Positions 14,898 through 58,131 of a stretch of 64,000 bases of DNA are shown here, one piece after another. Position 1 is the first letter of the stretch. The number at the start of each line of letters is the position of its first letter. The stretch is from Sphingomonas montanisoli (GTDB taxonomy: Bacteria > Pseudomonadota > Alphaproteobacteria > Sphingomonadales > Sphingomonadaceae). Position numbers and translations under genes: made by a program. The DNA is taken from positions 62,001-126,000 of the forward strand of contig NZ_VTOU01000004.1 in the NCBI RefSeq assembly GCF_008274695.1. Reading direction: 5' to 3'. Below the pieces are notes generated by a model. The model worked only from the letters and a program-made list of their open reading frames with translations. It had not been told where the DNA came from and ran no database searches.

Positions 14898-15251
14898 TAT
14901 CGTCTCCCAACAGTCAATTCTGTTCTATGGTGCATTTTTGCCCATGCCAATTTTGCATGTCAATGCCATTTTTGCGCAGCCGTATCGCTGCCGCCTCTTA
15001 ATTGGGTCTGCGGCGCTTTTTCTTTTCGGCGCCAATCGGCGATTCATGCGCCTGCGTCGCTTCGATCCAAATCGTCGCATTTATCCTTAGCTGCGACCAC
15101 GATTGCGAAGGTGCAAAGCGTGCGACTCGATTTTGAGGCGTGGGGATGTGCCGACCTGCGCACGGCAGACGCGAACCGGGGGCTGACTTTGAGGTTTGAC
15201 TTGGGGCTAATTCTGCACAAGAGTATAGAAAAGGGTTGAACGAGGATTGCC
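14898..15251. promoter_or_regulatory. Divergent intergenic region, TonB receptor / PQQ dehydrogenases
   Basis: This 354-bp gap holds promoters in both directions. Next to the receptor are three near-repeats of a TGC-A/T-TTTTGC element (about 14930-14980). On the minus strand a -35-like TTGACA follows GGCA. Towards the PQQ gene, AATTCTGCAC at 15211-15219 resembles the flank-plus-half-site of the shared operator, but its second half is degenerate. No gene is seen in the gap. Confidence 0.6.
14921..14934 (-). promoter_or_regulatory. Copy of shared 14-bp operator (TonB receptor)
   Basis: Read leftward the site is TGCACCATAGAACA, matching the consensus TGCACnnnnGgtCA at the first half and at the closing G and CA. 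It ends 24 bases upstream of the receptor ATG, so a bound repressor would block the promoter or early elongation. Confidence 0.5.
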
Positions 15252-17336
15252 ATGAAAGTCACGAAGAAGGCGGCGCTGGCATGCAGCGCGATCGCGCTTG
15301 CCTTTGCCGGCGGAATTGCCGGCTCGCGCGGCCCTGCGGGCGTTGTTGCCAATGCGGACGGCACCGATTGGGGCTCCTATGGGCGCACCAGCGACGAAGA
15401 CCATTATAGCCCGCTGACCCAGGTCAACGCCGGCAATATCAACCGACTCGGCCTCGCCTGGTCGATGGATCTCGACACCTACGACAGCTTCACGGCTCCG
15501 CTCGAAGTTGGCGGCGTCCTTTATTTCGGTGTCGGCAGCTCCGTCGTCAGCGCGGTCGATGCGGTCACCGGCAAGCAACTGTGGCAGTTCGATCCAGAGG
15601 TTTCGAAGGTCGTCGGGCACAAGATGCGCGCCGGCTGGGGCACGCGCGGCATCGCTTATTCGCAGGGGCGCGTCTTCACCGCGACCCGCGACGGCCGCAT
15701 GATCGCGATCGACGCCAAGACGGGCAAGCAGCTCTGGTCGGCGATGACGCTCGATCCCAAGGACGATGCCTATATCAGCGGCCCGCCGTGGGTTGCGGGT
15801 GACAAGGTGATCATCGGCTTCGGCGGCGGCGATTACGGGCCGGTTCGTGGCTATGTCACTGCCTATGACGTGGCGACAGGCAAGAAGGCGTGGCGTTTCT
15901 ACACCGTCCCCGGCAATCCCGCGAATGGGCCGGACGGCGAAGCGTCCGATGGCGTGATGGACATGGCCGCCAAGACGTGGACCGGCGAATGGTGGAAGGT
16001 CGGCGGCGGCGGCAACGTCTGGCACGCCATGGCGTATGACAAGAAATATGACCGGGTTTATCTGGGCACCGGCAACGGCTTCCCCTGGAACCAGAAGCTG
16101 CGCAGCCCCGCCGGCGGCGACAATCTGTTCCTCGCTTCGATCGTCGCGGTCGATCGCAAGACCGGCAAATATCTCTGGCACTATCAGGTCAATCCCGGGA
16201 ATACCTGGGACTATAACGACGCGATGGATATCCAGATGGCGACCCTCACTATCGAGGGCAAGCCGCGCGACGTGATCCTGCACGCGCCGAAGAACGGCTT
16301 CTTCTACGTGATCGACCGGACGACGGGTAAGCCGATCTCCGCCGGGCAGTTCGCCCCCGCCAACTGGGCGAGCCACATCGACCTCAAGACCGGCCGCCCG
16401 GTGGAAAATCCCAAGGCGCGCTATCCCGATGGCGAGCCGTTCATCATGTGGCCGTCGCCCACCGGCGCGCATGCCGTCCAGACCATGTCGTTCAATCCCA
16501 AGACGGGCCTGGTCTATATCCCCCAGATCGAGCAGCAGCGCGTCGTCGTCGATCCGCCCAAGCTCGCCGAGTGGAAGTATAAGGAGGGCATGTTCGTCAA
16601 CACCGGCCTGGGTGCGGTGCCAGCGGGCATGAAGACGGCGCCGGCTAGCAGCAACCTCGTCGCCTATGATCCGGTCGCGGCCAAGATCCGCTGGAAGATC
16701 CCGCAGAACGGCATCCTCAACGGCGGCACGATCACGACCGGCGGCAATCTGATCTTCCAGGGGCTCAACACCGGCAAGTTCACTGCGCTCGCGGCCGACA
16801 GCGGCAAGACCCTGTGGGAATTCGATGCGCAGAACGGCATTCTCGGCAACGCCATCACTTACTCGGTGAAGGGCACGCAGTATGTTACCGTCATCACCGG
16901 TTTCCGTTCGTCCTTCGCGAACACGCCCAACTGGGATTATCGCGAGCAGAAGCGCCGCGTGCTGACCTTTGCGCTCGACGCCAAGGCCAAGCTGCCCCCG
17001 GTCGAGCCGATGGATCAGCCGATCCAGGACGATCCGGCGTTCGTGGTCGATGCGGCCAAGGCGAAGATCGGCGGCGGCGTGTTCAATTCCAGCTGCATCA
17101 TCTGCCACGGTGCGGGCATGATCGCGGGCGGCGCGGCCCCCGATCTGCGAAAGTCGGCGATCCCGCTCGATGCGGATGCGTTCAAGCAGGTCGTCCATGA
17201 CGGTGCGCTGATGGATCGCGGCATGGGCAAATTCGACAATCTGAGTGATGCCGAACTCGAAGGTCTGCGCCACTATATCCGCCAGCGTGCCCGCGAGACC
17301 GCGCAGCCCGTGGCCCCGAACCCGGCCGCGAAATGA
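15252..17336 (+). CDS. PQQ-dependent quinohemoprotein dehydrogenase 1
   Basis: This 694-residue periplasmic dehydrogenase has an N-terminal signal peptide (about residues 1-24), an eight-bladed PQQ propeller and a C-terminal cytochrome c domain. Propeller repeats such as AVDAVTGKQLWQFD are clear. WDYNDAMD carries the catalytic aspartate. Heme attachment is at C615-I-I-C618-H619. Such enzymes oxidise alcohols or aldehydes and pass electrons to periplasmic cytochromes. The vicinal cysteine pair expected before the NRG segment in alcohol dehydrogenases is absent: the equivalent stretch is HKMRAGWGTRGIAY. It heads an operon with a second copy, so the preferred alcohol cannot be inferred from known members. 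Confidence 0.93.
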   Translation: MKVTKKAALACSAIALAFAGGIAGSRGPAGVVANADGTDWGSYGRTSDEDHYSPLTQVNAGNINRLGLAWSMDLDTYDSFTAPLEVGGVLYFGVGSSVVSAVDAVTGKQLWQFDPEVSKVVGHKMRAGWGTRGIAYSQGRVFTATRDGRMIAIDAKTGKQLWSAMTLDPKDDAYISGPPWVAGDKVIIGFGGGDYGPVRGYVTAYDVATGKKAWRFYTVPGNPANGPDGEASDGVMDMAAKTWTGEWWKVGGGGNVWHAMAYDKKYDRVYLGTGNGFPWNQKLRSPAGGDNLFLASIVAVDRKTGKYLWHYQVNPGNTWDYNDAMDIQMATLTIEGKPRDVILHAPKNGFFYVIDRTTGKPISAGQFAPANWASHIDLKTGRPVENPKARYPDGEPFIMWPSPTGAHAVQTMSFNPKTGLVYIPQIEQQRVVVDPPKLAEWKYKEGMFVNTGLGAVPAGMKTAPASSNLVAYDPVAAKIRWKIPQNGILNGGTITTGGNLIFQGLNTGKFTALAADSGKTLWEFDAQNGILGNAITYSVKGTQYVTVITGFRSSFANTPNWDYREQKRRVLTFALDAKAKLPPVEPMDQPIQDDPAFVVDAAKAKIGGGVFNSSCIICHGAGMIAGGAAPDLRKSAIPLDADAFKQVVHDGALMDRGMGKFDNLSDAELEGLRHYIRQRARETAQPVAPNPAAK

Positions 17337-19474
17337 CCGCCAGTCCGCAGGGCCGCCAGGTCCGCAGCGGTGCGATCGTGCTTGCGGTCGCGGCGGTCGG
17401 CATTGCCGCGGTCGCGGGAATGCAGCCGATCAAGGCACCCGCCGCCGCGACGCCCGGGCAGAACTGGACCGACTATGGCGGCCCGGACGCGCAGCATTAC
17501 AGTCCGCTCGATCAGATCAACCGCGCCAACGTAAGCCAGCTCGGCATGATCTGGTCGCTCGATCTCGACGACGGCCCGAATGCGATGAGCGTGCCGCTCG
17601 CGGTCGACGGCGTGGTCTATTTCACCACGGGTTACAGCCTGATCCACGCGGTCGATGCGCGGACGGGCAAGGAGTTGTGGCGTTACGATCCCAAGGCGCC
17701 CGAAGCCGCGGGCCACAAGATGCGCGCGGCGTGGGGAAGCCGTGGCATCGCTTATGCGCGCGGCAAGATCTTCACCGGCACGATCGACGGCCGGCTGGTT
17801 GCGGTCGACGCAAAGACGGGCGCGCTTGCGTGGGAAAAGCAGACTCTGTCGAAAACCGACGAAAGCTATATCAGCGGCCCGCCGTGGATCGCAGGCGACA
17901 AGGTGGTGATCGGCTTCGGCGGCGGCGATTTCGGCCCGGTACGCGGCTATGTCACCGCGTATGACATCGCCACCGGCGACAAGGCGTGGCGTTTCTACAC
18001 GGTGCCCGGCGATCCTGCGAAAGGGCCGGACGGCGAGGCGTCCGACGATGTCATGGCGATGGCCGCCAAGACGTGGACCGGCGACTTCTGGAAATATGGC
18101 GGCGGCGGCACCGTCTGGCACGCCATGGCCTATGACGCGAAGCGCGAGCTCTTGTTCTTCGGCACCGGCAACGGCGCGCCGTGGAACCGCAAGATCCGCA
18201 GCCCCGGCGGCGGCGACACATTGTTCGTGTGCAGCATCATCGCGGTCGACGCCAAGACCGGCAAATACCGCTGGCACTATCAGGTGAACCCCGGCGAAAG
18301 CTGGGACTATAACAGCGCGATGGATATCGAGCTGGCGACGCTCGACATCGGCGGCAAGCCCCGCGACGTGGTGATGCACGCGCCCAAGAACGGCTTCTAT
18401 TACGTCATCGATCGCGACACCGGAAAGCTGATCTCGGCCGAGAATTTTGCGCCGGTGAACTGGGCGACCGGGATCGATCTCAAGACCGGCCGTCCGAACG
18501 AAACGCCCTGGGCGCGCTTCCCCGATGGCAAGCCGGTCGTGTTGTGGCCATCGCCGGTCGGTGCGCATGCGGCCGAAGCAATGGCGTACAGCCCACGCAC
18601 GCAGCTCACCTACATCCCGGCCTATGACCAGAAGCGCGTCTATGTCGATCCGCCGAGCCTGAAGGACTTCAGCTTCAAGCCTGGCCAGGTCATCAACAAC
18701 GGCATCGGCACCCCGCCGCCCACGATGATCCCCCCGGCGGGCACCAGCGAACTCCTTGCCTGGGATCCGGTTCGCCAGAAGAAGGTGTGGAGCGTTCCGC
18801 AGGTTGGCCAGCGCACAGGCAGCGTCACCGCCACTGGCGGCGACCTGGTGTTCCAGGGTCAGGCCGATGGCATGTTGCAGGCGTTCGACGCGCGCACCGG
18901 CAAGAGCCTGTGGCGTTTCGATACGCAGAACGGCGTGCAGGCACAGCCGATCACCTATCTGCTCGACGGCAAGCAATATGTGACGGTGATGGCCAGCTGG
19001 CGTGCGATGGGCGCCAGCGGTCGCGTGCCGGAATATGACTATTACACCACCCGCCGCCGCGTGATTACCTTCGCGCTGGGCGGCGCCGCCAAATTGCCGC
19101 CGGTCGCGCCGGTCACACCGGTCGCGAACGATCCGACGTTCAAGGTCGATCCCGCGCTCGCCGATGCGGGTAAGCCGATCTTCGGTGCACATTGTGCAAT
19201 CTGTCATGGCCCGGCGACGATGTCGGGCGGCGCCGCGCCCGATCTGAAGCGGGCAGGAGCGCCGCTTTCGTTCGACGCGATCAAGGCGGTCCTTCACGAC
19301 GGGCTGCTCGTTCCGCGCGGCATGCCGCGGTTCGCAGAGTTCAGCGACGCCGAGATCGCGTCGATCCAACACTATATCCGCCAGCAGGCGCGCGCTGCGC
19401 TCGCCGCCCAGACGTCCGATGCGGCGCGGGCAAAGCTGGCGCAGGAAGCAAGGAAGCTGCATGTCGATCAATGA
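17333..19474 (+). CDS. PQQ-dependent quinohemoprotein dehydrogenase 2 (tandem paralogue)
   Basis: A 713-residue paralogue of the preceding gene, overlapping it by four bases (ATGA). It has an N-terminal hydrophobic segment (about residues 12-30; signal peptide or anchor), the PQQ propeller with WDYNSAMD, and a C-terminal cytochrome c domain with C621-A-I-C624-H625. The vicinal cysteine pair is again replaced (KMRAAWGSRGIAY). The two proteins share long motifs such as YISGPPW and GFGGGD and have probably diverged to different substrates or form a heteromer. Close coupling to CoA-linked genes downstream suggests they start side-chain oxidation in the periplasm. Confidence 0.92.
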   Translation: MTASPQGRQVRSGAIVLAVAAVGIAAVAGMQPIKAPAAATPGQNWTDYGGPDAQHYSPLDQINRANVSQLGMIWSLDLDDGPNAMSVPLAVDGVVYFTTGYSLIHAVDARTGKELWRYDPKAPEAAGHKMRAAWGSRGIAYARGKIFTGTIDGRLVAVDAKTGALAWEKQTLSKTDESYISGPPWIAGDKVVIGFGGGDFGPVRGYVTAYDIATGDKAWRFYTVPGDPAKGPDGEASDDVMAMAAKTWTGDFWKYGGGGTVWHAMAYDAKRELLFFGTGNGAPWNRKIRSPGGGDTLFVCSIIAVDAKTGKYRWHYQVNPGESWDYNSAMDIELATLDIGGKPRDVVMHAPKNGFYYVIDRDTGKLISAENFAPVNWATGIDLKTGRPNETPWARFPDGKPVVLWPSPVGAHAAEAMAYSPRTQLTYIPAYDQKRVYVDPPSLKDFSFKPGQVINNGIGTPPPTMIPPAGTSELLAWDPVRQKKVWSVPQVGQRTGSVTATGGDLVFQGQADGMLQAFDARTGKSLWRFDTQNGVQAQPITYLLDGKQYVTVMASWRAMGASGRVPEYDYYTTRRRVITFALGGAAKLPPVAPVTPVANDPTFKVDPALADAGKPIFGAHCAICHGPATMSGGAAPDLKRAGAPLSFDAIKAVLHDGLLVPRGMPRFAEFSDAEIASIQHYIRQQARAALAAQTSDAARAKLAQEARKLHVDQ

Positions 19475-20588
19475 TGTGACCACGCTGGAGATGGACGGTG
19501 AGGTCGCCGTCGTCACCGTCGATTATCCGCCGGTCAACGTGCTGTCGGCAGCGGTACGGCAGGGTGTCGCCGCTGCACTCGACCAGGCGGGCCAGGATGA
19601 TGCGGTTAAGGCCGTGGTCCTGATCTGCGCGGGCAAGACCTTCTTCGCGGGCGCGGACATCACCGAATTCGGCAAGCCGCTCGCCGAACCCACAATCCGC
19701 CAGCTGGAGGAGATCGTCGAGGACACGCCCAAGCCCGTGATTGCCGCAATGCATGGCACCGCGCTCGGCGGCGGTTTCGAACTCGCGCTTTCGGCGCATT
19801 ATCGCGTCGCGTCGGCCCCTGCGAAGATGGGTCTGCCCGAGGTCAAGCTGGGCCTCCTCCCCGGCGCGGGCGGTACCCAGCGACTGCCGCGCGTCGTCGG
19901 CGTCGCCAAGGCGCTCGACCTGATGACGATCGGTAATCCGGTTACGGCCGATGAAGCGGCGACAATGGGGCTGATCGACGCGGTCGTCGACGGCGACCTG
20001 CGCGCCGCAGCCGTCGCCTTCGCAAAAACGAAGATCGGCGCGCCGCTGGAGCGCATCCGCGATCGCCCGGTCACGGTCGATCCTGGCCAGATCGCGGCGT
20101 TCCGTACCGCCAATGCCGACCGCTTTCGCAACCTCGATGCGCCCGAAGCGATCATCAAGACGGTCGAAGCGAGCGCGCTCCCCTTCGCCGAGGGCATGGA
20201 CCGCGAGCGCGATCTGTTCCGCGAACTGATGGCCGGCCCGCAGTCGGCCGCGCTCCGCTACGTCTTCTTCGGCGAACGGCAGGCCGCCAAGGCCGATCCG
20301 CTGCCCGTGTCGGCTGTGGATCGCCTGACGGCCGCGAAAGAATCCGAACTCGCGCTGATCAACGAAGGCGCCAAGCTGCTCGACGAAGGGATCGCCCCGC
20401 GCGCGCTCGAAATCGATGCGCTGGCGGTGAAGGCGCTCGGCTGGCCGTCCTATCTCGGCGGCCCGCTCTATTCGGCCGACAAACAGGGGCTGCCGACCAT
20501 CATCAAGCGGATGCGCGCTGACGGGATCGAACCCTCGCCGCTGATCGAACGGCTCGCTGCTGAAGGAAAGGGATTTACCCAGGCATGA
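19461..20588 (+). CDS. Enoyl-CoA hydratase fused to a 3HCDH C-terminal remnant (FadB-like without NAD domain)
   Basis: This 375-residue protein starts as a FadB/FadJ-type crotonase: GTALGGGFELAL carries Glu107 and GLPEVKLGLLPGAGG carries Glu127, the catalytic pair 20 residues apart. After the usual linker (GPQSAALRYVFFGER, about residue 260) the NAD-binding and first helical 3-hydroxyacyl-CoA dehydrogenase domains are missing. The chain goes straight to a C-terminal 3HCDH segment (INEGAKLLDEGIAPRALEID, then GWPSYLGGP). The gene is intact and in frame. The ATG at 19461 follows AGGAAG and overlaps the previous stop by 14 bases. Hydratase activity is likely; dehydrogenase activity is not possible from this chain. 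Confidence 0.85.
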   Translation: MSINDVTTLEMDGEVAVVTVDYPPVNVLSAAVRQGVAAALDQAGQDDAVKAVVLICAGKTFFAGADITEFGKPLAEPTIRQLEEIVEDTPKPVIAAMHGTALGGGFELALSAHYRVASAPAKMGLPEVKLGLLPGAGGTQRLPRVVGVAKALDLMTIGNPVTADEAATMGLIDAVVDGDLRAAAVAFAKTKIGAPLERIRDRPVTVDPGQIAAFRTANADRFRNLDAPEAIIKTVEASALPFAEGMDRERDLFRELMAGPQSAALRYVFFGERQAAKADPLPVSAVDRLTAAKESELALINEGAKLLDEGIAPRALEIDALAVKALGWPSYLGGPLYSADKQGLPTIIKRMRADGIEPSPLIERLAAEGKGFTQA

Positions 20589-21736
20589 CGATGAAGGCCG
20601 GAACCATCGCGATCACAGGCGTCGGCGAAACGCCGATGGTCCGCGCGAGCCAGCAGTCGCTGCTCGAAATGACGGTCGACGCCAGCATGATGGCGATCGC
20701 CGATGCCGGCTTGAAGCCGCAGGACATCGACGGCTTCGTCGTCAACCGCAACAGCCATTCGGCCGACGAACTCGGCTTCGCGTTGGGCATCGACAAGCGC
20801 CCGTTCAGCGCGATCACCGACACGGTCGGCGGCACCGGCCCGACGGCATCGGCGCTGACGCTGGCATTGCTCGCGATCGAGGCGGGCCTCGCGCGTCACG
20901 TCCTCGTCCCCTACGGTTTCCAGGCGACCCGCCCCGGCGGCCCCTATGGCTTCCACTCGCGCGAGCCGCTCAAGGCCGATCTCGAAATGCCGGTCGGCTA
21001 TTTCGGCCAGCCGAGCTACTTCGCCGCGATGGCGAACCGCTATGCCCACGAATATGGGCTGAGCGAGGAGGAATTGGCCTCGGTCTCGATCACCTTCCGC
21101 AAATGGGCCGAACTGACCCCGGCCGCGCAGAAGCGCGATCCGATGGATCTGGAGGGCTATCGCAAGAGCCCGATGATCTCGACCCCGTTCCGCGTCGCCG
21201 ATTGCTGCCTGATGACCGATGCGGGCGCCGCCTATGTCGTCAGCCGGGCGGATGAGGCGCGCGACATGGCGCAGCCGCGCGTGCTGGTCGACGGGCTTGG
21301 TCTGGGCACGACCCGCTGGCCGCATTCGATGATGTTCACGCAGGCGCCGTCGATCTTCGACTTCCCCGGTCGTGAATCCGCCAAGCCGGCGTTCGAAATG
21401 GCGGGCGTCATCGCCGCCGATCTCGATTGTGCGCAGATTTATGACGGCTTCAGCATCTCCGCGCTTGTCCAGGCCGAACAGCTTGGCCTGTGCGGCGAGG
21501 GGGAGGGTGGCAAGTTCTTCCACGCGGGCCATGCCGCGCCGGGCGGCAAGATGCCGGTCAACACCTCGGGCGGGCACATGTCGGGCGGCTATCTGCCGGG
21601 CATCACCCTGCTGATCGAGGGCGTCCGCCAGCTTCGCCACCAGCGCGACGCTGCGCAGGTGCCCGATGCCACGCTCTGCGCCGTCACCGGCCTTGGCGGC
21701 AATTCGCACGCCACCACCATTTTGCGGAGAGGCTGA
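20585..21736 (+). CDS. SCP2-type thiolase-like protein lacking the catalytic cysteine (aldolase candidate)
   Basis: This 383-residue thiolase-fold protein belongs to the sterol-carrier/lipid-transfer thiolase group. Where thiolases have the nucleophilic cysteine it reads SAITDTVGGTGPTASA, with no cysteine. The C-terminal loop is VNTSGGHMSGGYLPG. Cysteine-less members such as Ltp2 pair with DUF35 proteins and act as retro-aldolases on 3-hydroxyacyl-CoA side chains of steroids. A DUF35 gene follows three bases downstream, so that reaction is the best guess here. The start overlaps the hydratase stop (ATGA); an ATG two codons later is also possible. Confidence 0.85.
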   Translation: MTMKAGTIAITGVGETPMVRASQQSLLEMTVDASMMAIADAGLKPQDIDGFVVNRNSHSADELGFALGIDKRPFSAITDTVGGTGPTASALTLALLAIEAGLARHVLVPYGFQATRPGGPYGFHSREPLKADLEMPVGYFGQPSYFAAMANRYAHEYGLSEEELASVSITFRKWAELTPAAQKRDPMDLEGYRKSPMISTPFRVADCCLMTDAGAAYVVSRADEARDMAQPRVLVDGLGLGTTRWPHSMMFTQAPSIFDFPGRESAKPAFEMAGVIAADLDCAQIYDGFSISALVQAEQLGLCGEGEGGKFFHAGHAAPGGKMPVNTSGGHMSGGYLPGITLLIEGVRQLRHQRDAAQVPDATLCAVTGLGGNSHATTILRRG

Positions 21737-21738
21737 TC

Positions 21739-22155
21739 ATGGGCATTCCCGTCCACGCTCCCAAGTTCGAAAGCGACCTGCTCAAGCCCTTTTACGAAGG
21801 GCTGGCCGAAGGCGAACTGCGCCTGACCGCCGATACGGAGACCGGCGAATGGGTCTGGTATCCGCCTGAAATGGTCTCTGGCCGCCCGCACGCGACGCTG
21901 GAATGGAAGAAGGCGAGCGCGGAGGGCACCGTCTATACCTACACCACCGTCATCCGCAGCCTGCTCCCCGGTGATCACAAGGCGGAGGTGCCGTTCACCG
22001 TCGTCCTCGTCGAGCCGGACGACGCGCCGGGCTGCCGCGTGCCGGGCCTGTTCGTGGCGGACGAGGGCGTCGCTGCGGTCTGCGATATGCGCGTGCGGCT
22101 GCATCCGGTGCAGGCGGGCGATCATGTGATCGCGGGGTTTGCGCCGATTTCCTGA
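21739..22155 (+). CDS. DUF35 OB-fold partner protein (zinc-ribbon cysteines lost)
   Basis: This 138-residue protein is of the DUF35/OB-fold group that binds SCP2-type thiolases. The C-terminal OB fold is clear (GTVYTYTTVIRS, then VPFTVVLVEPDD). The N-terminal rubredoxin-like zinc ribbon is present in outline, but its four cysteines are gone: the region reads TGEWVWYPPEMVSGRPHATLEW. In ChsH2/Ltp2 complexes the DUF35 subunit is needed for aldolase activity. It closes the PQQ-hydratase-thiolase operon and is followed by a palindromic repeat. Confidence 0.85.
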   Translation: MGIPVHAPKFESDLLKPFYEGLAEGELRLTADTETGEWVWYPPEMVSGRPHATLEWKKASAEGTVYTYTTVIRSLLPGDHKAEVPFTVVLVEPDDAPGCRVPGLFVADEGVAAVCDMRVRLHPVQAGDHVIAGFAPIS

Positions 22156-22163
22156 ACCAAGAT

Positions 22164-22248
22164 CGTCATTCCCGCGAAGGCGGGAACCTATCCAGTCTCT
22201 CCGCGAGAGAAAGCATTGGATAGGCCCCCGCCTTCGCGGGGGTGACGG
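22164..22248. repeat. Dispersed palindromic repeat (CCGCGAAGGCGG family), copy 2
   Basis: Arms CGTCATTCCCGCGAAGGCGG and its near-complement (ending TGACGG) enclose a short inner hairpin. It is nearly the same element as the one at 7889-7974. It lies between the convergent ends of the DUF35 gene and the quinone-reductase-like gene and may act as a bidirectional transcription barrier. Confidence 0.75.
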
Positions 22249-22250
22249 CA

Positions 22251-23225: not shown

Positions 23226-23230
23226 GGGGA

Positions 23231-23869: not shown

Positions 23870-23885
23870 CCTCTTCTCTCCTGTC

Positions 23886-24902: not shown

Positions 24903-24929
24903 CGGGGCAGTCCTGAAAAGAAAGGGGGA

Positions 24930-34075: not shown

Positions 34076-34076
34076 C

Positions 34077-43673: not shown

Positions 43674-43718
43674 CGGTCCGCTCTCCATAAACTCTGTTGG
43701 GTATCCGCTACGCAATTC

Positions 43719-43732: not shown

Positions 43733-43807
43733 AAATCTAAGTTGCCAACGCCGCGTCGGCCATGCAATGTCAGGCAAGAGATAAGAGCAAGGACGAGAGG
43801 TTTCACG

Positions 43808-45564: not shown

Positions 45565-45574
45565 GGGACTGCAC

Positions 45575-48114: not shown

Positions 48115-48125
48115 AAGGATTTCGC

Positions 48126-49661: not shown

Positions 49662-49670
49662 CTCAATTGC

Positions 49671-49698
49671 TTGACGGTTTTGAACCGCTGTGCAGAAT
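49671..49698 (+). promoter_or_regulatory. TetR promoter and autoregulatory operator copy
   Basis: TTGACG (49671-49676) and CAGAAT (49693-49698) form a sigma-70-like promoter with a 16-base spacer. Read on the minus strand, the site 49681-49694 is TGCACAGCGGTTCA, flanked by CAATTC, and fits the shared consensus. The palindrome lies in the spacer, as at 40.1 kb. Its position argues that translation starts downstream of it. Confidence 0.5.
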
Positions 49699-49725
49699 TG
49701 GCGCTTTCCTGCCGAGGATCGACGT

Positions 49726-50394: not shown

Positions 50395-50401
50395 CCTCCT
50401 A

Positions 50402-50526
50402 AATCCTCCCCGGTACGGGGAGGTGGCGCCGAAGGCGACGGAGGGGGCTGGCCACAAGCGATGCGCTTTGCCTCCAACCCCCTCCACCATCCTGCGGATG
50501 GTCCCCCTCCCCGTGCCGGCGAGGAT
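50402..50526. repeat. Composite intergenic repeat, copy B
   Basis: Outer arms are CCTCCCCGGTACGGGGAGG and CCTCCCCGTGCCGGCGAGG. Inner modules are GGCGCCGAAGGCG on the left and ACCATCCTGCGGATGGT on the right. The same arms and left module occur at 55.1 kb. It follows the TetR gene directly. Confidence 0.8.
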
Positions 50527-50534
50527 CAAGAAAA

Positions 50535-50548
50535 TGCACATTGGTGCA
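50535..50548. promoter_or_regulatory. Copy of shared operator (crotonase at 50.6 kb)
   Basis: TGCACATTGGTGCA is one of the two most symmetrical cores in the set, nearly the same as the site at 40.06 kb. It is 64 bases upstream of the crotonase ATG. Confidence 0.55.
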
Positions 50549-50612
50549 ATTTCACGTTGAGATGGTGACAAGGCTAAACTAGCATCCGTCGAAAGATCGG
50601 AGAGGTTTGGAT

Positions 50613-51422
50613 ATGGCCGAAGGCGCACCGCCCCTGCTCGTCGAGCGGACCGAGGACGATATCGTCATCGTTACCCTGAACCGCCGTCAAGCGGTCAATT
50701 CGGTCTCGTTCGAGATGTGGGAATTGTTCGGCGCGGCGCTCGACGAGATCGAGCGGAACACGCCGCCGCGCGGGCTGGTGGTGACAGGTGCTGGCGGATT
50801 CTTCTGCATCGGCGGCGACGTGAAGCTGCCCCCCGCACGCGGCGAAGGCGCGCTGTCGCCCGCGACCCGGCTGGAGATGGGGCAGCGGATCATCGCGCGG
50901 CTGCGCAAGCTGCCCGTCCCCGTCATCTCGGCGGTCGAGGGTGGCGCGTTCGGGATCGGCCTCGCGCTCGCGCTTTCCGCCGACATGGTGTTCGCGGGCG
51001 AAGGTTCGCAATTCGGCGCGCCCTTCATCGATTATGGCACCGTGCCCGATGGCGGCGCGACGTGGCTGCTCGAACGGCAGATCGGGCGCTATCGCACCGC
51101 CGAACTGATCTTCTCGGGCCGCACGATCGACGTGGCCGAGGCTTCGTCGCTGGGCCTGATCAGCCGCGCCACGCCGAAGGGCGAGGCGCTCTCCACCGCG
51201 GTCGAATTCCTCAAGAATGTCGGCCAGGGTAACGCCCATGCGACCGAACTGGCCAAGCGGCTGCTGCAGGGCGCGCAGGAGGGCGGGATCGACGCCAGCC
51301 ACAGTCTGGAGCTCGCCTATTGCGCGATCTGCCAGACCGGCGAGGAAGTGGCCCGCGCGCGCGAAGCCTTCATCGCCAAGGCGCAGGCAGCCCGCGCGGC
51401 CAAAGCCGAAGCGAAGGGCTGA
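50613..51422 (+). CDS. Enoyl-CoA hydratase/isomerase family protein
   Basis: A 269-residue crotonase-fold protein. It has the oxyanion-hole segments GAGGFFCIGGDV and EGGAFGIGLALALSAD. The two catalytic glutamates of classical hydratases are not in place: the second region reads GAPFIDYGTVPDGG, with an aspartate nearby. An isomerase or atypical hydratase is therefore likely. The ATG at 50613 follows GGAGAGG. It begins an operon with the flavin reductase, EamA exporter and esterase, under a copy of the shared operator. Confidence 0.88.
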   Translation: MAEGAPPLLVERTEDDIVIVTLNRRQAVNSVSFEMWELFGAALDEIERNTPPRGLVVTGAGGFFCIGGDVKLPPARGEGALSPATRLEMGQRIIARLRKLPVPVISAVEGGAFGIGLALALSADMVFAGEGSQFGAPFIDYGTVPDGGATWLLERQIGRYRTAELIFSGRTIDVAEASSLGLISRATPKGEALSTAVEFLKNVGQGNAHATELAKRLLQGAQEGGIDASHSLELAYCAICQTGEEVARAREAFIAKAQAARAAKAEAKG

Positions 51423-51427
51423 CCGGA

Positions 51428-52057
51428 ATGCAGATCGACATGGCCGCGACGCCCTTTGGCGCGCGCTACAACATCATGAACTCGACGGTGACGCCGCGCC
51501 CGATCGCGTGGACGGTGACGCTGGATGAGGAGGGCAAGCCCAACGCCGCCCCGCACAGCTTCTTCAACGCGCTGGGCAGCGATCCGGCGATGGTCGTGCT
51601 GGGCCTGATGAAGATCAAGGGGCAGGACAAGGACACCGCCGCCTATATCCGCGCGCGCCCCGACTTCGTGATCGCGCTGGTGGCGGAGCATGACGCCGAG
51701 GCGATGAACAAGACCGCGACCGACAGCCCGCGCGGCGTCGACGAACTCGCGATGTTCGGGATCGGCACCGCGCCCGCATCGGTCGTCGCGCCGCCGCTGA
51801 TCGCCAGCGCGCCGGTCAATTTTGAATGCCGGGTGCGCGACATGCTCGATTATCCGGGGCAGACGGTGGTGATCGCCGAAATCCTGGTCGCGCATATCAA
51901 GGACGAGTTCATCCTGAATGCGGAACGGATGCACCTCGATACGCCCGCGATGCAGCTGATCGCGCGCACGCATGGCGCGGGCTGGTATGAGCGCGGGACC
52001 GACCTGTTCCAGATGAACCGCCCGAGCTACGCGCAGCTGATCGAGGACGCAAAGTGA
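51428..52057 (+). CDS. Flavin reductase-like FMN-binding split-barrel protein
   Basis: A 209-residue protein of the flavin reductase/flavoredoxin group. It opens with GARYNIMNSTVTPRPIAWTVT and has APHSFFNALGSDPAMVVLGL, the FMN-binding core. It may give reduced FMN to the LLM oxidoreductase at 23.9 kb or act as a reductase on its own substrate. Its start is five bases after the crotonase stop, and its end overlaps the next gene by four bases (GTGA). Confidence 0.88.
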   Translation: MQIDMAATPFGARYNIMNSTVTPRPIAWTVTLDEEGKPNAAPHSFFNALGSDPAMVVLGLMKIKGQDKDTAAYIRARPDFVIALVAEHDAEAMNKTATDSPRGVDELAMFGIGTAPASVVAPPLIASAPVNFECRVRDMLDYPGQTVVIAEILVAHIKDEFILNAERMHLDTPAMQLIARTHGAGWYERGTDLFQMNRPSYAQLIEDAK

Positions 52058-52965
52058 CTCCGCGCACTGCCGGTGGTGAACCGGCGGTGCCGTTCGGAGC
52101 GTTGGACCTGTCCGTTGCCGCCGCGATGAACATCCTGTGGGGGATGAACATCATCGCGATGAAGGTGACGGTCGGCGCGCTCGCCCCCTTCACCGCGGGC
52201 GCCGCGCGCCTCGCGATCGTCGGGCTGATCTGCGCGCCGTGGATGCGGCCGCCGCAGGGGCGGGTGAAGTCTCTTGCATTGTTCGGGCTGATCACGGGCG
52301 GGCTGTTCCTCCTCTTCCTCAACCTCGCGCTCAAGGTGTCGACCAATGTCGGCGCGCTCGCGATCGTCGGGCAGATGGCGGTGCCGATCGCACTGGTGCT
52401 GGGCGCAGTGATCCTGAAGGAACGGATGAGCCGCGCGCAACTGGCGGGGATCGCGGTCGCGATCGTCGGGATCGTCGTGCTGATGTTCGATCCGCGCATC
52501 TTCGGCGAGTTGCCGGGGCTGCTGCTGATGCTGCTCGCGGCGACGATGTGGGGGACGAGTTCGCTCGTCCAACGGCAACTGGCCGGCGTGCCGGTGCTGA
52601 CGCTCTATTTCTGGACCGGGCTGATGGGCACCGCGCTCCTGCTGCCGATGTCGCTGGTGCTGGAGCCTGGGGTGCTGGCGAAGCTGCCGGGCCTGCCCGC
52701 AGCACCGCTCGCGTGGCTCGCTTTCTCGGTGCTGGGCGCGACGCTGGCGGGGCAGGGCGGGATGGCGTGGCTGCTGGGTCGCCACCCGCTGTCGGCGGTG
52801 ATGCCGCTGACGCTCGCGGCGCCGGTCGTGTCGGTGGCGGCATCGCACTGGATGTTCGGAACGCCGGTAACGGCGTCGATGGTGATCGGCGGACTGATGA
52901 CGCTCGCCGGCGTGGTGATCGTAACGATGGCGCGACGACGCGCACTGAAGGAGATGGGTGCATGA
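52054..52965 (+). CDS. EamA/DMT-superfamily transporter
   Basis: A 303-residue membrane protein with ten predicted helices in two EamA repeats (first from LSVAAAMNILWGMNIIAMKV, second from LPGLLLMLLAATMWGTSS). DMT members usually export metabolites or amino acids. Start codon GTG at 52054 overlaps the previous stop. The position between catabolic genes points to export of an end product or shuttle of the substrate; the substrate is unknown. Confidence 0.9.
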   Translation: MTPRTAGGEPAVPFGALDLSVAAAMNILWGMNIIAMKVTVGALAPFTAGAARLAIVGLICAPWMRPPQGRVKSLALFGLITGGLFLLFLNLALKVSTNVGALAIVGQMAVPIALVLGAVILKERMSRAQLAGIAVAIVGIVVLMFDPRIFGELPGLLLMLLAATMWGTSSLVQRQLAGVPVLTLYFWTGLMGTALLLPMSLVLEPGVLAKLPGLPAAPLAWLAFSVLGATLAGQGGMAWLLGRHPLSAVMPLTLAAPVVSVAASHWMFGTPVTASMVIGGLMTLAGVVIVTMARRRALKEMGA

Positions 52966-54485
52966 AGGGTATGACACGGAGCCTGCTGGCGTCGGTGGCG
53001 CTGTGCGCGAGCGTGGCGAACGCCGCCGCGCCGATCGTGACGACCGATCTGGGGCAGGTGAAGGGCATCGCCGTTCCCGAAGGCTATTCCTATCGCGGTA
53101 TCCCCTTCGCGGCTCCGCCGGTGGGCGAGGGCCGCTGGAAGGCGCCGGCGCCGGCCAAGGCGTGGAAGGGCGTGCGCGATGCGAGCCAGTTTGGCTACAA
53201 CTGCATCCAATCCGAACGTGGGCGCGAAGTCGGCGAGACATCCGAGGATTGCCTGACGCTCAGCGTCGTGACGCCGGAAGTGGGCGCCAAGAAGCTGCCC
53301 GTGCTGGTGTCGATCCACGGCGGCGCCTTTGCGTTCGGTTCGGGCCGCTACCTGGCCGATGGCGGGGCGGCGGCGATCGTGAAGCAGGGCATCGTGCTGG
53401 TGTCGCCCAATTACCGCGTCGGCCGCATGGGCTTTTTCGCGCATCCGGCGCTGACGGCGGAGGCCAAAGGCGGCGCGACGGCCAATTTCTGGCTGATGGA
53501 CCAGATTGCGGCGCTGGGCTGGGTCCGGCGCAACATCGACAAGTTCGGTGGCGATCCGTCGAACGTGACGATCCTGGGCTGCTCGGCGGGCGGATCGAGC
53601 GTCAATCAGTTGCTCGTCGCGCCCTCGGCCAAGGGGCTGTTCGCGAAGGCCAGCGTCCATTCGGGCGGTGGTGTGTTCAACGCCAGCCGGTCGCTGGAGG
53701 TCGCGGAAAAGCAGGGCGTGGCCTTTGCCGATCGCACCGGCATCCAGGGCACCGACGCGGCGGCGCTGGCGAAGCTGCGCAAGCTGACCCCGGCACAGGT
53801 GCTGGCGGGCGATCCGGGCGCGCCGGAATTCGGCGCGATCGTCGACGGCAAGCTGCTGCCGATCGGCACGGCCGAGGCGTTCGCAACGGGCGCGATCACG
53901 AAGGTGCCGCTGTTTTCGGGATCGACCAGCGATGAGGCGAGCGTGTTCGGGCTGATGGGCTTCGACAAGGAAACGCTGAAAGACCGCTTCGGCGTCGATG
54001 TCGATGCACTGCGCCCGATCTATGAGGAGGCGGAGGGGCAGAAGCTGAGCGACGCCGAACTGCTGCGCCAGGTGCAGACCGACTTCATCTTCACGTCGGC
54101 CGCGATGGGCGTTTCGGGGATGGCTGACAAGGCGGGGCTGCCTAGCTGGGGCTATCACTTCGGTTATGTCGATGCGGCCGATCAGGGCAAGAAGCCCGGT
54201 GTGCCGCATTGTGGGGACATGCCCTACTTCTTCGGCACGCCGAAGGGCACGGCCCCGGCCGACCTGAAGGTGTCGCAGACGATGCAGAACTATCTGGTCA
54301 ACTTCATCAAGGCGGGCGATCCGAACGGCGCCGGCCTGCCCGCATGGCCGCGCTACCAGACCCCGAACGCGGCGCCGCTGGTGGTCGACAAGGAGATCAA
54401 GGCGGTGCCCGGCTTCCGGGCGAAGCAGCTCGAATTCTTCCTGAACAAGGGCGGGGACGAGATGGGGCACAAGATCCCGCGGTAG
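52962..54485 (+). CDS. Type-B carboxylesterase, exported
   Basis: A 507-residue alpha/beta hydrolase of the carboxylesterase type-B family. It has a signal peptide (residues 1-22, SVANA), the YRGIPFAAPPVGEGRW start and the oxyanion motif SIHGGAFAFGS. The nucleophile elbow reads GCSAGGSS with Ser208; the family normally has GESAGG, so glutamate is replaced by cysteine. The charge-relay acid is expected near DEAS (around residue 325), and the histidine near VPHCGDMPYFF. Secreted to the periplasm, it could hydrolyse an ester so that the acid can enter the pathway. Confidence 0.92.
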   Translation: MKGMTRSLLASVALCASVANAAAPIVTTDLGQVKGIAVPEGYSYRGIPFAAPPVGEGRWKAPAPAKAWKGVRDASQFGYNCIQSERGREVGETSEDCLTLSVVTPEVGAKKLPVLVSIHGGAFAFGSGRYLADGGAAAIVKQGIVLVSPNYRVGRMGFFAHPALTAEAKGGATANFWLMDQIAALGWVRRNIDKFGGDPSNVTILGCSAGGSSVNQLLVAPSAKGLFAKASVHSGGGVFNASRSLEVAEKQGVAFADRTGIQGTDAAALAKLRKLTPAQVLAGDPGAPEFGAIVDGKLLPIGTAEAFATGAITKVPLFSGSTSDEASVFGLMGFDKETLKDRFGVDVDALRPIYEEAEGQKLSDAELLRQVQTDFIFTSAAMGVSGMADKAGLPSWGYHFGYVDAADQGKKPGVPHCGDMPYFFGTPKGTAPADLKVSQTMQNYLVNFIKAGDPNGAGLPAWPRYQTPNAAPLVVDKEIKAVPGFRAKQLEFFLNKGGDEMGHKIPR

Positions 54486-54490
54486 TCCGA

Positions 54491-54613
54491 AATCCTCCCC
54501 GGGACGGGGAGGGGGACCGCGAAGCGGTGGAGGGGGGTGGCCGCGGGCGATGCGTCAAGCCTCCTGCCCCCTCCGTCAGCTGTGCTGACACCTCCCCGGA
54601 TCGGGGAGGATTT
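54491..54613. repeat. Composite intergenic repeat, copy C
   Basis: Outer arms are CCTCCCCGGGACGGGGAGG and CCTCCCCGGATCGGGGAGG. The left module is ACCGCGAAGCGGT, while the right is GTCAGCTGTGCTGAC. This copy mixes a left module of one type with the right module seen at 42.4 and 58.5 kb. It follows the esterase gene. Confidence 0.8.
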
Positions 54614-55128
54614 TCGGTAGGCGCACCCGTGGCGTAGAATCAGGACAGGTGAAGGTCGGCGCGTCCTGCCAAAAGGGCACCCGGACGTTGGGTAACGTAA
54701 AGATAGTCGTGCGGGCATGGCTGGGGCCGACCGAACCGACATGCTTTGCCTGCTGTCACCAGGCCAGGGGATGCGGTCCTGCGATTGGCTGCTGCCATCC
54801 TTGCAGGGGATGGCCCCGGCGATTGGGGGCGAAGCGCGGTCTGTCCGGTCGGGGCTACCGGGGATGCGGGACTCTGACTTCCCGCAGTGGATCGGCCCTG
54901 TCTTCCCTTCGAAACCGCAAGTCGCCTCCGCCTGCCGGCGGGTTCGTCCAGCACATGCCGGCGAGAAGCGATGCGCATCCGCTTCTGAACCGGATGACTT
55001 CGCGCCGACCTGTCACGGCCCGGTGACGGAGCGAGCTCTGCTCCGGGCCGGTCCTGTATCCTCACGCTGATCGGGCGAGAGGATGAGTGAGTGAATAACC
55101 CAAATGGTTCTTTTTGTCAAGTATAAAG
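54614..55128. other. Gene-less, hairpin-rich segment between two repeat copies
   Basis: About 515 bases with no convincing gene. Open frames exist in several phases, but none has a ribosome-binding site, recognisable protein motif or normal codon pattern. Hairpins are dense: CCATCC/GGATGG (54795-54813), GCGGGA/TCCCGC (54866-54885), a 21-base palindrome GAAGCG...CGCTTC (54965-54985), and a nested stem GGCCC-GGAGC/GCTCC-GGGCC (55017-55049). An AT-rich patch (55090-55128) precedes the right-hand repeat. It may encode a structured RNA or be a relic; I cannot decide. Confidence 0.45.
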
Positions 55129-55255
55129 ATCCTCCCCGGGACGGGGAGGTGGCGCCGAAGGCGACGGAGGGGGCAGGAGGCAAGGCGATGCGCCCGGTCT
55201 CCTGCCCCCTCCACCATGCTCCGCATGGTCCCCCTCCCCGTGCCGGGGAGGATTT
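55129..55255. repeat. Composite intergenic repeat, copy D
   Basis: Outer arms CCTCCCCGGGACGGGGAGG and CTCCCCGTGCCGGGGAG; left module GGCGCCGAAGGCG; right module ACCATGCTCCGCATGGT; and between them an AGGGGGCAGGAGG/CCTCCTGCCCCCT stem. It lies past the stop of the aldehyde dehydrogenase. Confidence 0.8.
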
Positions 55256-55260
55256 TCAGA

Positions 55261-56733
55261 TCAATCCATCCGGACCCAGATGCTCTTGGTGTTGAGGTAG
55301 CTGGCGACGTGTTCGTAGCCGCCTTCGCGGCCGAAGCCGGACATCTTGTAGCCGCCGAAGGGGACCGAGGGGTCCATCGCGAAATAGTGGTTCACCCAGA
55401 CGGTGCCCGATTTGATGCGGTTGGCGGTCGACAGGCCGACGGTGATATCCTTGGTCCAGACGCCACCCGCGAGGCCGAAGCGCGATGCGTTGGCGCGGGC
55501 GATCACCTCTTCCTGCGTATCGAACACCATGATCGAGGCGACGGGGCCGAAGATCTCCTCACGCGCGATGCGCATGTCGTCATTGACGTCGGCGAAGACG
55601 GTGGGGGCGACCCAGTGGCCGGTGTCGAGGCCGCCATCGGTGACGCGCGCGCCACCCGCAACGAGGCGGGCACCTTCGGTCGGGCCGTGATCGAGATAGT
55701 CCTGCACGCGGGTATATTGTTTGGCCGAGACGAGCGGGCCGACCTGCGTCGTGGGATCGAGGCTGGGGCCGATCTTCATCGCCGAGGCGAAGGCGGCGAC
55801 ACCGGCGACGACCTCCTCATAGACGCCGCGCTGGACGAACAGGCGGGTGCCGGCGGCGCAGACCTGCCCCGAATTGTTGAACACGCCGATCGCGGCGGCG
55901 GGGATGGCGCGGGTGAGATCGGCGTCGTTGAAGATGATGTTGGGGGACTTGCCGCCCAGCTCCATCGTGACGCGCTTCACGGTGCCGGCCGACGCCTGAA
56001 TGATCCGCTGCCCGGTCTCGCAGCTTCCGGTGAAGCTGATCTTGTCGATGTCGGGGTGGTTGGAGAGCGCGGCGCCCGTCGCGCCCATGCCGGTGACGAT
56101 GTTGACGACGCCTGCGGGGATGCCGGCCTCCAGGCACAGTTTGCCGAAGGCGAGGGGGCTGAGCGAGGCGTCCTCGGCGGGCTTCAGCACCACGGTGCAG
56201 CCCGCGGCGAGGGCGGGGGCGATCTTCCACACCGCGCTGAACAGCGGGCCGTTCCACGGAATGATCGCGCCGACGACGCCGATCGGCTCGCGCACCGTAT
56301 AGGTGAACAGATCGACGGGCGCTGAATTGTGGATCGTCTCACCGTGGATCGCGGTGGCGAGGCCGGCGAAGTGGCGGATCGCGCGCAGGACGAGATCGCG
56401 GAGACCCCGGGCGGCCGTGATCGGGCGGCCCATTTCGAGTGTGTCGAGCAGGGCGAGATCGTCGAAGTCGCGATCGATCAGGTCGGCGAGGCGCAGGAGC
56501 ATCGCCTGACGCTCGGCGGGCTTCACCTTGGCCCAACTGCCTTCGAGCGCGCGGCGCGCGGCGGCAACGGCGCGATCGACATCGGCTTCGGCCCCCAGAG
56601 GGATGTCGGCAAGCTTCGCACCGGTGTTCGGATTGAGCGTGTCGAAACGCTCGCCGGAGATGGCGTCGACGAACTGGCCGTCGATCAGGAGACCCTTGGG
56701 CGTGCCCGCGATGAGGGCGGCGTGATCGGTCAT
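55261..56733 (-). CDS. NAD(P)-dependent aldehyde dehydrogenase
   Basis: A 490-residue aldehyde dehydrogenase. Glu258 (TMELGGKSPN) and nucleophile Cys292 (NNSGQVCAAG) are in place. IPWNGPLF and the KPAE motif (Lys184) bind the coenzyme. The ATG at 56733 has AAGGA upstream; a ten-codon longer frame overlaps the preceding gene and is rejected. It follows the MFS gene after a ten-base gap, so an alcohol oxidised by the periplasmic PQQ enzymes or a related aldehyde could be its substrate after import. Confidence 0.94.
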   Translation of the reverse strand: MTDHAALIAGTPKGLLIDGQFVDAISGERFDTLNPNTGAKLADIPLGAEADVDRAVAAARRALEGSWAKVKPAERQAMLLRLADLIDRDFDDLALLDTLEMGRPITAARGLRDLVLRAIRHFAGLATAIHGETIHNSAPVDLFTYTVREPIGVVGAIIPWNGPLFSAVWKIAPALAAGCTVVLKPAEDASLSPLAFGKLCLEAGIPAGVVNIVTGMGATGAALSNHPDIDKISFTGSCETGQRIIQASAGTVKRVTMELGGKSPNIIFNDADLTRAIPAAAIGVFNNSGQVCAAGTRLFVQRGVYEEVVAGVAAFASAMKIGPSLDPTTQVGPLVSAKQYTRVQDYLDHGPTEGARLVAGGARVTDGGLDTGHWVAPTVFADVNDDMRIAREEIFGPVASIMVFDTQEEVIARANASRFGLAGGVWTKDITVGLSTANRIKSGTVWVNHYFAMDPSVPFGGYKMSGFGREGGYEHVASYLNTKSIWVRMD

Positions 56734-56743
56734 TTGGTAATCC

Positions 56744-58078
56744 TTACAGGGCTTCGACGGCATTCCGCATCGAGCGGCGGCCGAGCGCGAACAGCAATGC
56801 CGAGGGGAGCAGCACGACGAATATGGTGATGACGAGCGACATGCCCACCAGCTTCTCGTCGCCCAGCACCTTGTCGGTGATGAGACCCACGGTGGCGGGG
56901 CCGCCCGCCAACGCGATCAGGCCGGTGACGAGGACGTAGAGCGCGGAGACGCGGCCGCGCAGGCGCGGGGCGGTAACGACCTGCACCACCGTCGGGCCCA
57001 TGCTGGCGGCGGCGAGGACGAGCGCCATGAACAGGCCGTAGAGAATGACGGTCACCCACGGGTTTGACACGAGGAAGGCGACGACGCCGAGCGGGGCGGC
57101 GATGATCACCGCGCCCATGCACCACAGGAGATGTGCGTCACGACGGCCGGCCTTGAACATCCGATCGACCGCCCAGCCATGCACCGGCATCAAAGCGGCA
57201 GCGAGGATCTGGGTAACGCCGAGGACCGGGCCGATCTGCGCGGGTGTCCAGCCGTGGACGCGGGCGAGGAAGCTGGGGGTCCACAGCTGGAAGCCGATCG
57301 TGCAGGCATAGGTGAGGCCGAAGCCGAGGAATGTCGCGACGGCGAGCGGCTTGTGCGCCTTCAGGAAGGTCCACGCCTCGCCATAGCCGGCGCCTTGGTC
57401 GATCGAGGTCTTCTTGCGGCGGATAGGCTCACGGAAGAGGAATACGAGCAGCGCGAGCAGGATGCCGGGTGCGCCGGTGATGATGAACACCTCCTGCCAC
57501 GGCTGGAGCGCGCCGAGGATCGGCCAGACCGAGCCGCCGCCCTGCATCACGGCCGACACGATCGGCCCGCCGACGAGGAACACCACGCCCGCGCCCATCA
57601 CGCCGCCCATGATGAAGATCGACATGGCGAGGCCGACCTTGTGCGGGGGGAAACTGTCCCCCACCACCGAATAGCTGCCGGTCGAGAAACCGGATTCGCC
57701 GACGCCGACGCCAGCGCGCGATATGGCCAGCATCGCGAAGCTGGAGGCCAGGCCGCACGAGGCGGCGGCGATGCTCCAGATCGTGACTGACAGCCACAGG
57801 ATCACGCGGCGGCTGTAGCGATCGAGCGCCATGCCGACGGGCAGCGCGCAGATGCAGAACAGGAAGGCGAAGGCGGGACCTTGCAGCAGGCTGATCTGCA
57901 GATCGGACAGGCCGAGATCGGCTTTGATCGGGCCGACCATCAGCGCCATGATGTTCCGGTCGGTCAGCGACAATATGTAGAGCAGGAAGAGGATCGCGAC
58001 CGTAAGCCAGCCCATCGCGGGCGAGGGGTAGGCGGCGGCGTCCTGTTCGGACGCGGGGGAATCGGCGGGCGCGATCAT
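56744..58078 (-). CDS. MFS transporter (spinster-like/aromatic acid type)
   Basis: A 444-residue membrane transporter with twelve helices. The motif after helix 2 is GMALDRYSRR, and helix 1 carries LSLTDRNIMALMV. This is the general pattern of spinster-like MFS proteins common next to catabolic genes in sphingomonads. The ATG at 58078 follows GGAGAG with nine bases between. The frame stays open into the repeat upstream, but there is no ribosome-binding site there. A copy of the shared operator is 40 bases upstream of the start. Confidence 0.92.
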   Translation of the reverse strand: MIAPADSPASEQDAAAYPSPAMGWLTVAILFLLYILSLTDRNIMALMVGPIKADLGLSDLQISLLQGPAFAFLFCICALPVGMALDRYSRRVILWLSVTIWSIAAASCGLASSFAMLAISRAGVGVGESGFSTGSYSVVGDSFPPHKVGLAMSIFIMGGVMGAGVVFLVGGPIVSAVMQGGGSVWPILGALQPWQEVFIITGAPGILLALLVFLFREPIRRKKTSIDQGAGYGEAWTFLKAHKPLAVATFLGFGLTYACTIGFQLWTPSFLARVHGWTPAQIGPVLGVTQILAAALMPVHGWAVDRMFKAGRRDAHLLWCMGAVIIAAPLGVVAFLVSNPWVTVILYGLFMALVLAAASMGPTVVQVVTAPRLRGRVSALYVLVTGLIALAGGPATVGLITDKVLGDEKLVGMSLVITIFVVLLPSALLFALGRRSMRNAVEAL

Positions 58079-58117
58079 TCTTGTGTCTCTCCTATGCGCG
58101 AGCATAGGCCACAATTT

Positions 58118-58131
58118 TGCACGATAGGTCA
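58118..58131. promoter_or_regulatory. Copy of shared operator (MFS-aldehyde dehydrogenase operon)
   Basis: TGCACGATAGGTCA, with flanks CAATTT and ATAT, lies 40 bases upstream of the MFS ATG. On the minus strand a -35-like TTGACC overlaps its end, as at 43.7 kb. The two sites share 12 of 14 core bases plus flanks. Confidence 0.55.

Follow-up and report, generated by a model that had tools for sequence, protein, structure and literature searches.

The DNA analysed here is a 64,000-nucleotide stretch of Sphingomonas montanisoli (contig NZ_VTOU01000004.1, positions 62,001 to 126,000; hereafter the window), and our subject is a palindromic motif that recurs between the genes of a 46-kb cluster within it, g14 to g50. 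The cluster encodes a TonB receptor, two pyrroloquinoline quinone (PQQ) alcohol dehydrogenases, crotonases, acyl-coenzyme A (CoA) dehydrogenases, thiolases, two class-III CoA-transferases, an AMP-binding enzyme of the acyl-CoA ligase type, a cytochrome P450 with a ferredoxin, transporters and an aldehyde dehydrogenase, together with genes for cofactor F420 and a TetR-family protein, g44, which is the sole regulator gene among the 37 of the cluster. A first-pass annotation of this DNA had described a 14-bp palindrome in seven promoter regions, with an eighth and weaker match, and had proposed one regulon probably run by the local TetR. That observation is confirmed here, and it is larger than first described.

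A 24-bp palindrome in the promoter regions of the cluster

The seven cores, and the eighth at 15214-15227, agree in letters and position with the window sequence. By gene calls from our own codon-usage script all of them are intergenic; for the core at 40060-40073 this requires a g36 start at 40105, which we placed by hand in agreement with the related genome G084, the gene caller having picked an ATG at 40066. With the limits of transcription units inferred from strand and gaps, every one of the 11 units has a site upstream, the core at 27399 serving both g23 and g24 and that at 43719 both g38 and g39. This bears out the placement of the sites before catabolic operons, and one core, at 49681-49694, lies upstream of g44 itself.

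The sites stand as a shared motif, but the bare 14-mer does not stand as its informative unit, which is instead a 24-bp palindrome, about AATTyTGCACnATnGTGCArAATT. The consensus TGCACnnnnGgtCA occurs at chance frequency (50 matches with at most two mismatches, against 57.6 expected) and is rejected as the motif; in exact form it occurs seven times in the 4.1-Mb genome, once inside the window. The exact symmetric core TGCACN4GTGCA occurs at three places in the genome, two of which are in the window. When one mismatch is allowed, there are 58 places in the genome against 29 for a reversed control, and the window holds four intergenic places, where a Markov model of intergenic DNA predicts 0.16, plus one further place within a gene. 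Much of the signal and information of the motif is contributed by its A+T-rich flanks.

A symmetrised 24-bp weight matrix built from the eight earlier sites places those eight at ranks 1 to 8 in the window, followed by two additional intergenic sites, 14954-14967 and 31427-31440, that were absent from the earlier list. In leave-one-out runs with a symmetric ten-site matrix, each omitted site is recovered as the top hit of the window (10/10, scores 16.3-26.8), and the highest score of any non-site over all ten runs is 13.6. All ten sites are intergenic; noncoding DNA makes up ~9% of the window (5950 bases by gene calls, after the small predicted gene g54, 63783-63935, was removed by hand). The sites and the genes discussed below are collected in Table 1.

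Table 1. Predicted operators and associated features. Positions refer to the window unless a locus is named; the ten window operators were predicted by matrix score, and each ranked first when left out of the matrix.
Feature	Position	Strand	Remarks
Predicted operator	14916..14939	-	upstream of TonB receptor g14
Second predicted operator of g14	14949..14972	+	newly added
Predicted operator	15209..15232	+	upstream of g15-g19 (PQQ alcohol dehydrogenases, crotonase, thiolase-like, OB-fold)
Predicted operator	27394..27417	-	between divergent g23 (CoA-transferase unit g23-g20) and g24 (F420 unit g24-g26); found at the equivalent place in G084 (L031 15478)
Predicted operator	31422..31445	-	upstream of P450 g27; newly added; equivalent place in relatives
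Predicted operator	40055..40078	+	within spacer of g36 promoter
Predicted operator	43714..43737	+	between divergent g38 (thiolase) and g39-g43 unit
Predicted operator	49676..49699	-	upstream of tetR (g44) itself
Predicted operator	50530..50553	+	between tetR and g45 unit
Predicted operator	58113..58136	+	upstream of g50-g49 (major facilitator superfamily transporter, aldehyde dehydrogenase)
Cluster regulon g14-g50	11964..58078	.	37 predicted genes, 11 inferred transcription units; gene calls and Pfam of all 37
g24-g26: FO synthase CofGH (FbiC type), NADPH:F420 reductase NpdG, F420-0 ligase CofE	27532..31242	+	NCBIfam above curated cut-offs
g44, TetR-family regulator	49726..50394	+	222 aa; start codon uncertain, GTG upstream at 49690 possible
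Distant TonB receptor and sulfatase	L060:5052-10284		two predicted operators upstream; similar pairs in G011 (L097) and G212 (L092)
Second TetR	L060:10450-11214		30% identical to g44; divergent from distant TonB receptor, shares its operators

Sites beyond the window and the protein that binds them

The first-pass annotation had suggested a genome scan with a model of its sites as a check. For this we used a sequence-only model, R1, built from the ten window sites. Over the 4.1-Mb genome, at E<=10, R1 returns seven of the ten and a single other place (C9:275370), so that outside the window the scan finds only one locus. This place holds two sites 35 bp apart (matrix scores 23.5 and 20.4), which separate a TonB receptor gene followed by a sulfatase gene from the divergent gene of a second TetR protein; the receptor shares 87% identity with g14, and the same stretch of C9 has an additional site of 15.5. 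In G212 and G011 as well, sites on contigs other than that of the cluster stand before a gene pair of this kind, a g14-like TonB receptor followed by a sulfatase. The three sulfatases share 66-70% identity and all carry a CSPTR motif, which we take to be the formylglycine site. Because such pairs with sites occur in all three genomes, the regulon appears to have a distant member in three genera. Weaker sites elsewhere in the genome may be missed, since R1 overlooks three weaker sites of its own training set at this threshold and 150 of 244 candidates were scored.

The comparison of orthologous promoters, also proposed earlier, gives a consistent picture: relatives of several genera keep sites at matching promoters (G084, G156, G201, G011, G212 and G206) despite differing gene order. 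The window-trained matrix finds sites scoring at least 20 near tetR in 8/8 loci, L002-L009, whose TetR proteins are 59-88% identical to g44; of the next two loci (56% and 55%), one has no site and the other one site of 18. Eight 20-kb stretches taken as background beyond the clusters contain no site of at least 15. Among the loci of named TetR orthologues, which span Sphingomonas, Sphingobium, Novosphingobium, Sandaracinobacteroides, Emcibacter and Terricaulis metagenome-assembled genomes and others, 31/34 hold a site of at least 20, and by hand count the site is directly beside tetR in 27/34. Pooled sites of at least 20 are intergenic in 137 cases and within genes in two; in these pooled sets the window's ten sites are included as given, with a placeholder score, and the motif logo is weighted.

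Some of these loci deserve separate mention. L117 (TetR at 10001-10633), from a record named Luteimonas saliphila, contains this TetR together with operators and genes of the cluster, a combination otherwise found in sphingomonads, which points to transfer or contamination. In L121 and L122, two loci of 47-48% G+C from Emcibacter metagenome assemblies, sites flank the TetR gene on both sides; the low G+C also raises the number of chance matches. The TetR gene of a Sphingobium faniae record (L114:10001-10633) has a stop in the matched stretch and was called as two pieces, with the surrounding operators kept.

Could the motif be an effect of chance or composition, that is, A+T-rich promoter DNA that happens to contain a TGCA palindrome? 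The chance frequency of the bare 14-mer would fit this, as would occasional matches in DNA that is A+T-rich or otherwise: among loci with only distantly related TetR proteins, 4/46 hold a site of at least 20 and 11/46 one of at least 17. It does not fit the leave-one-out ranks of the ten sites, their retention at orthologous promoters, or the single further place returned by the genome-wide scan. We consider this explanation practically negligible, and refuted already as far as sequence can refute it.

The presence of g44 predicts the presence of sites. In 22 genomes scanned with R1 at E<=3, places were found in 7/8 with a close TetR orthologue and 2/14 without. The scan was extended to 298 genomes with an E limit of 1.2 and stricter filters, a close orthologue being defined as at least 55% identical, a limit chosen after seeing the list. 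Here 22 genomes have a place, comprising 8/11 with a close orthologue and 14/287 others; at least two distinct places are found in 8/11 and 1/287, respectively (Fisher p about 1e-12, or 2.5e-11 without the own genome, on which R1 was trained). G133 is counted as a member of the regulon because it has the cluster and a TetR of 49% identity. The other 13 hit genomes, which lack the cluster, have 15 places, 11 inside predicted genes and four not, and none of the 15 adjoins close relatives of cluster genes.

The proposal of a single regulon is supported by the presence of a site before each inferred cluster unit, by the recurrence of sites at orthologous promoters of several genera, and by the single further place that the scan returns from the genome. 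Its assignment to the local TetR is likewise well supported, by the co-occurrence across genomes, by the adjacency of sites to tetR, and by the lack of any other regulator in the cluster. Because the palindrome lies before each gene group and before the distant pair, and recurs in relatives with the same TetR, it is very probably the binding site of g44; that the g44 protein binds it is what we infer from these patterns. Our overall interpretation, to which we assign a probability of about 0.86, is that the palindrome is the operator of g44, positioned before all cluster units and in trans before the TonB-receptor/sulfatase pair, and that g44 would repress these genes until a pathway intermediate releases it.

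An alternative is that another regulator binds the sites, either the second TetR or a protein encoded elsewhere in the genome, and that g44 is merely one of the targets. In the own genome the second TetR gene immediately adjoins the distal sites; in G011 the distal site likewise has a TetR gene of similar kind as its neighbor, and further TetR genes are found next to sites. These facts weigh against our assignment, as do several others. Three of the 11 genomes with a close orthologue were missed: G189 (TetR 66%) has sites that the matrix detects and R1 does not, and one 21.7 site away from cluster genes; G266 (56%) has no site, and no cluster near its TetR; and G296 (L123, 55%) has one weak site of 18 only. 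No site was found with a 57% relative of g44 in Novosphingobium sp. Chol11 (L130:10001-10645) or with a 45% relative at L132, the site upstream of tetR, present in the window and some relatives, was not seen in G084, G206 or G156, and R1 is incomplete even on its training sites, as noted above. However, in G084, G206, G156, G201, G143 and G212 the second TetR finds no better match than the g44 orthologue (E<=1e-15), and all six have sites; on these grounds we rejected the second TetR as the conserved master regulator. When this is taken with the predictive value of g44 over the 298 genomes and with its position as the only regulator gene of the cluster, binding by another protein appears improbable, and we retain g44 as the likely binder. 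We note that the Chol11 locus holds, within 10 kb, no cluster genes at 38% identity or above save a g25-like one.

The g44 protein has the TetR N-terminal helix-turn-helix (Pfam TetR_N PF00440, E 2.2e-12, 47 bits against a cut-off of 24), and the region of the recognition helix is conserved among the orthologues found. Matches at E<=1e-20 are present in 24/298 genomes of the family, the own genome included, and in 0/6 other genomes of its genus among those searched. A tRNA-Arg (CCT) gene at 10453-10529, ~1.4 kb off the edge of the cluster, is a possible insertion landmark because the TetR is missing from those six genomes. A plasmid origin was considered and rejected; g44 matches two plasmid records at E<=1e-30, with 36-40% identity. 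At the other edge of the cluster, the amidohydrolase gene g51 (58492-60249) has an 80% relative near the G084 cluster, and it seems to be outside the regulon because no site lies upstream of it in either genome.

Promoter geometry and the proposed mechanism

Two operator geometries are present: the site lies either within the promoter spacer or, at two operons, ahead of a -35-like box with nearly constant spacing. The first had been reported for the site at 40.1 kb, and there the description stands. The g36 promoter consists of TTGAAA (40052-40057) and TATCCA (40075-40080), and its 17-bp spacer is filled by the core. A similar layout is seen in G084 and L095; the remaining three rows with single-direction g36 (G201, L117 and L125) lack it, as do five with divergent g36. 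The description does not extend to g45 and g23, where the site is upstream of the -35-like box. In the window, g45 has a promoter-like TTGAGA-N17-TAGCAT at 50557-50585, downstream of the operator. The rows compared include related strains, and promoter boxes were scored with a hand-entered matrix.

The overlap with the g36 spacer, and the 24-46 bp that separate core and start codon at g14, g15, g27, g36, g38 and g50, suggest that g44 binding would mostly repress. The position at g45 and g23 is an unusual one for a repressor and speaks against simple repression at these two operons, where the protein may act differently, perhaps as an activator; occlusion of an upstream element would look identical. 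On this basis g44 could be a dual regulator, repressing at g36, g27, g15 and g18, whose operators overlap promoter or leader, and activating at g45 and g23. Relative to the start of the core, TTG is found at exactly 21 bases in 19/22 g45 rows and 14/19 g23 rows, against 4/58 rows for other promoters, and by hand count TA is at the -10 place in 17/22 g45 rows, the -10 boxes of g23 being poor. Of the two half-sites, the gene-proximal one is also closer to GTGCA, by +0.73 of 5 bases on average in 70 representatives (flip test p 0.001). Yet this asymmetry is found at other promoters (+0.61, p 0.015) as well as at g45 and g23 (+1.09, p 0.026), the window's own g45 spacing is one base longer, and a protein bound in this position might just as well repress, by masking the A+T-rich DNA ahead of the -35 box. 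In addition, the majority of studied TetR proteins are repressors (PMC3511530). We regard a dual role as a tentative possibility that is not the probable one, and keep to g44 as a predominant repressor.

In the mechanism that we propose, a g44 dimer would bind sites of the 24-bp type before every cluster unit and the distant pair, and would hold these units off until a pathway intermediate binds and releases it. The effector would be a CoA thioester or related intermediate, an acyl-CoA effector being a guess. The route would import a branched or cyclic isoprenoid-type alcohol, and probably also its sulphate ester; the alcohol would be oxidised by the PQQ dehydrogenases and the aldehyde dehydrogenase, and the product would be activated to its CoA ester and pass through beta-oxidation and retro-aldol steps. 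A hint of this kind of substrate comes from the structure matches of two cluster proteins. The P450 has CYP101-type enzymes as its nearest structures, and g18 best matches thiolase 4u4e and next the lipid-transfer protein 6ok1, presumably the retro-aldolase Ltp2 of steroid side chains.

The genes for cofactor F420 would be under the same control as this catabolic route. All three products of g24-g26 score above NCBIfam equivalog cut-offs (CofGH NF006687, 1128.5 bits against 1018; NpdG TIGR01915, 175.4 against 149.8; CofE TIGR01916, 247.7 against 180.65), and two other CofE models score below theirs (NF009809, 223 against 274; NF009810, 192.3 against 304). F420 biosynthesis is split in this genome: these three genes are in the regulon, and CofD and CofC are encoded on contig C13 (L091:7957-9410), with luciferase-like monooxygenase and Rieske genes near. 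The C13 genes were considered as part of the regulon and rejected, as no site above 15 was found in the 18 kb examined. A more ambitious scenario would have a horizontally spread TetR couple on-demand F420 synthesis in Sphingomonadaceae to the catabolism of sulphated isoprenoid- or steroid-like alcohols, through a network that reaches the distant TonB-receptor/sulfatase pair, with the protein a repressor at some promoters and an activator, from a near-fixed place upstream of the -35 box, at others; we offer this as speculation and consider it unlikely in its full form.

With these results the 46-kb cluster, previously uncharacterised, becomes a defined regulon whose operator can be tested. The receptor-sulfatase pair in trans is a clue to the substrate, and the near-fixed spacing at two operons makes the question of repressor or activator directly testable. 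If F420 is indeed made only alongside a catabolic pathway, this would give the F420 genes of sphingomonads a role.

Comparison with known regulators

The motif, as TGCACNNNNGTGCA, TGCAC-N4-GTGCA or TGCACN4GTGCA, was not found in the open PubMed Central papers searched. In the same collection, no paper on this cluster was among the top titles and abstract starts for F420 or deazaflavin, or for TetR, combined with sphingomonad words, and the main text of a 2021 FEMS review on F420 has no word starting with 'sphingomon' or 'novosphingobium'.

Structures of KstR and its model match g44 weakly. We rejected g44 as a KstR on its score of 37.4 bits against the equivalog cut-off of 280 (NCBIfam NF033703), and the KstR operator probably differs from this motif. 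The FasR model gives only a marginal match to g44 (19.4 bits, cut-off 330). KstR and KstR2 of Mycobacterium tuberculosis, TetR proteins that repress cholesterol degradation, resemble g44 in that a TetR protein presides over a large catabolic gene set including uptake (PMC6678751). FasR of M. tuberculosis, a TetR-like activator that senses long-chain fatty acids, is an earlier example of a TetR-type activator that has an acyl effector (PMC7382501). EGO55_16300 of Caenibius tardaugens is likewise a sphingomonad TetR in a catabolic cluster, the bile-salt cluster bsd I, with proposed palindromic operators, but its two named palindromes differ from this motif (PMC12882949).

Among the systems compared, the nearest analogue is MftR of Mycobacterium smegmatis, a TetR-like regulator of mycofactocin biosynthesis that has been found by experiment to bind its operator and long-chain acyl-CoA (PMC8728441). 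Like g44, MftR is TetR-like and has a long palindromic operator (27 bp for MftR) upstream of redox-cofactor genes, conserved in relatives (PMC8728441). In contrast, the regulon described here is larger and its cofactor genes are for F420, and the binding and effector of its regulator are predictions from sequence. Set beside these systems, the operator set described here is real and conserved and very probably that of one TetR protein, working as other catabolic TetR regulons do and ordinary in kind; what is new is the presence of F420 biosynthesis genes in the regulon and the two operator geometries, with the receptor-sulfatase pair in trans as a third point of interest.

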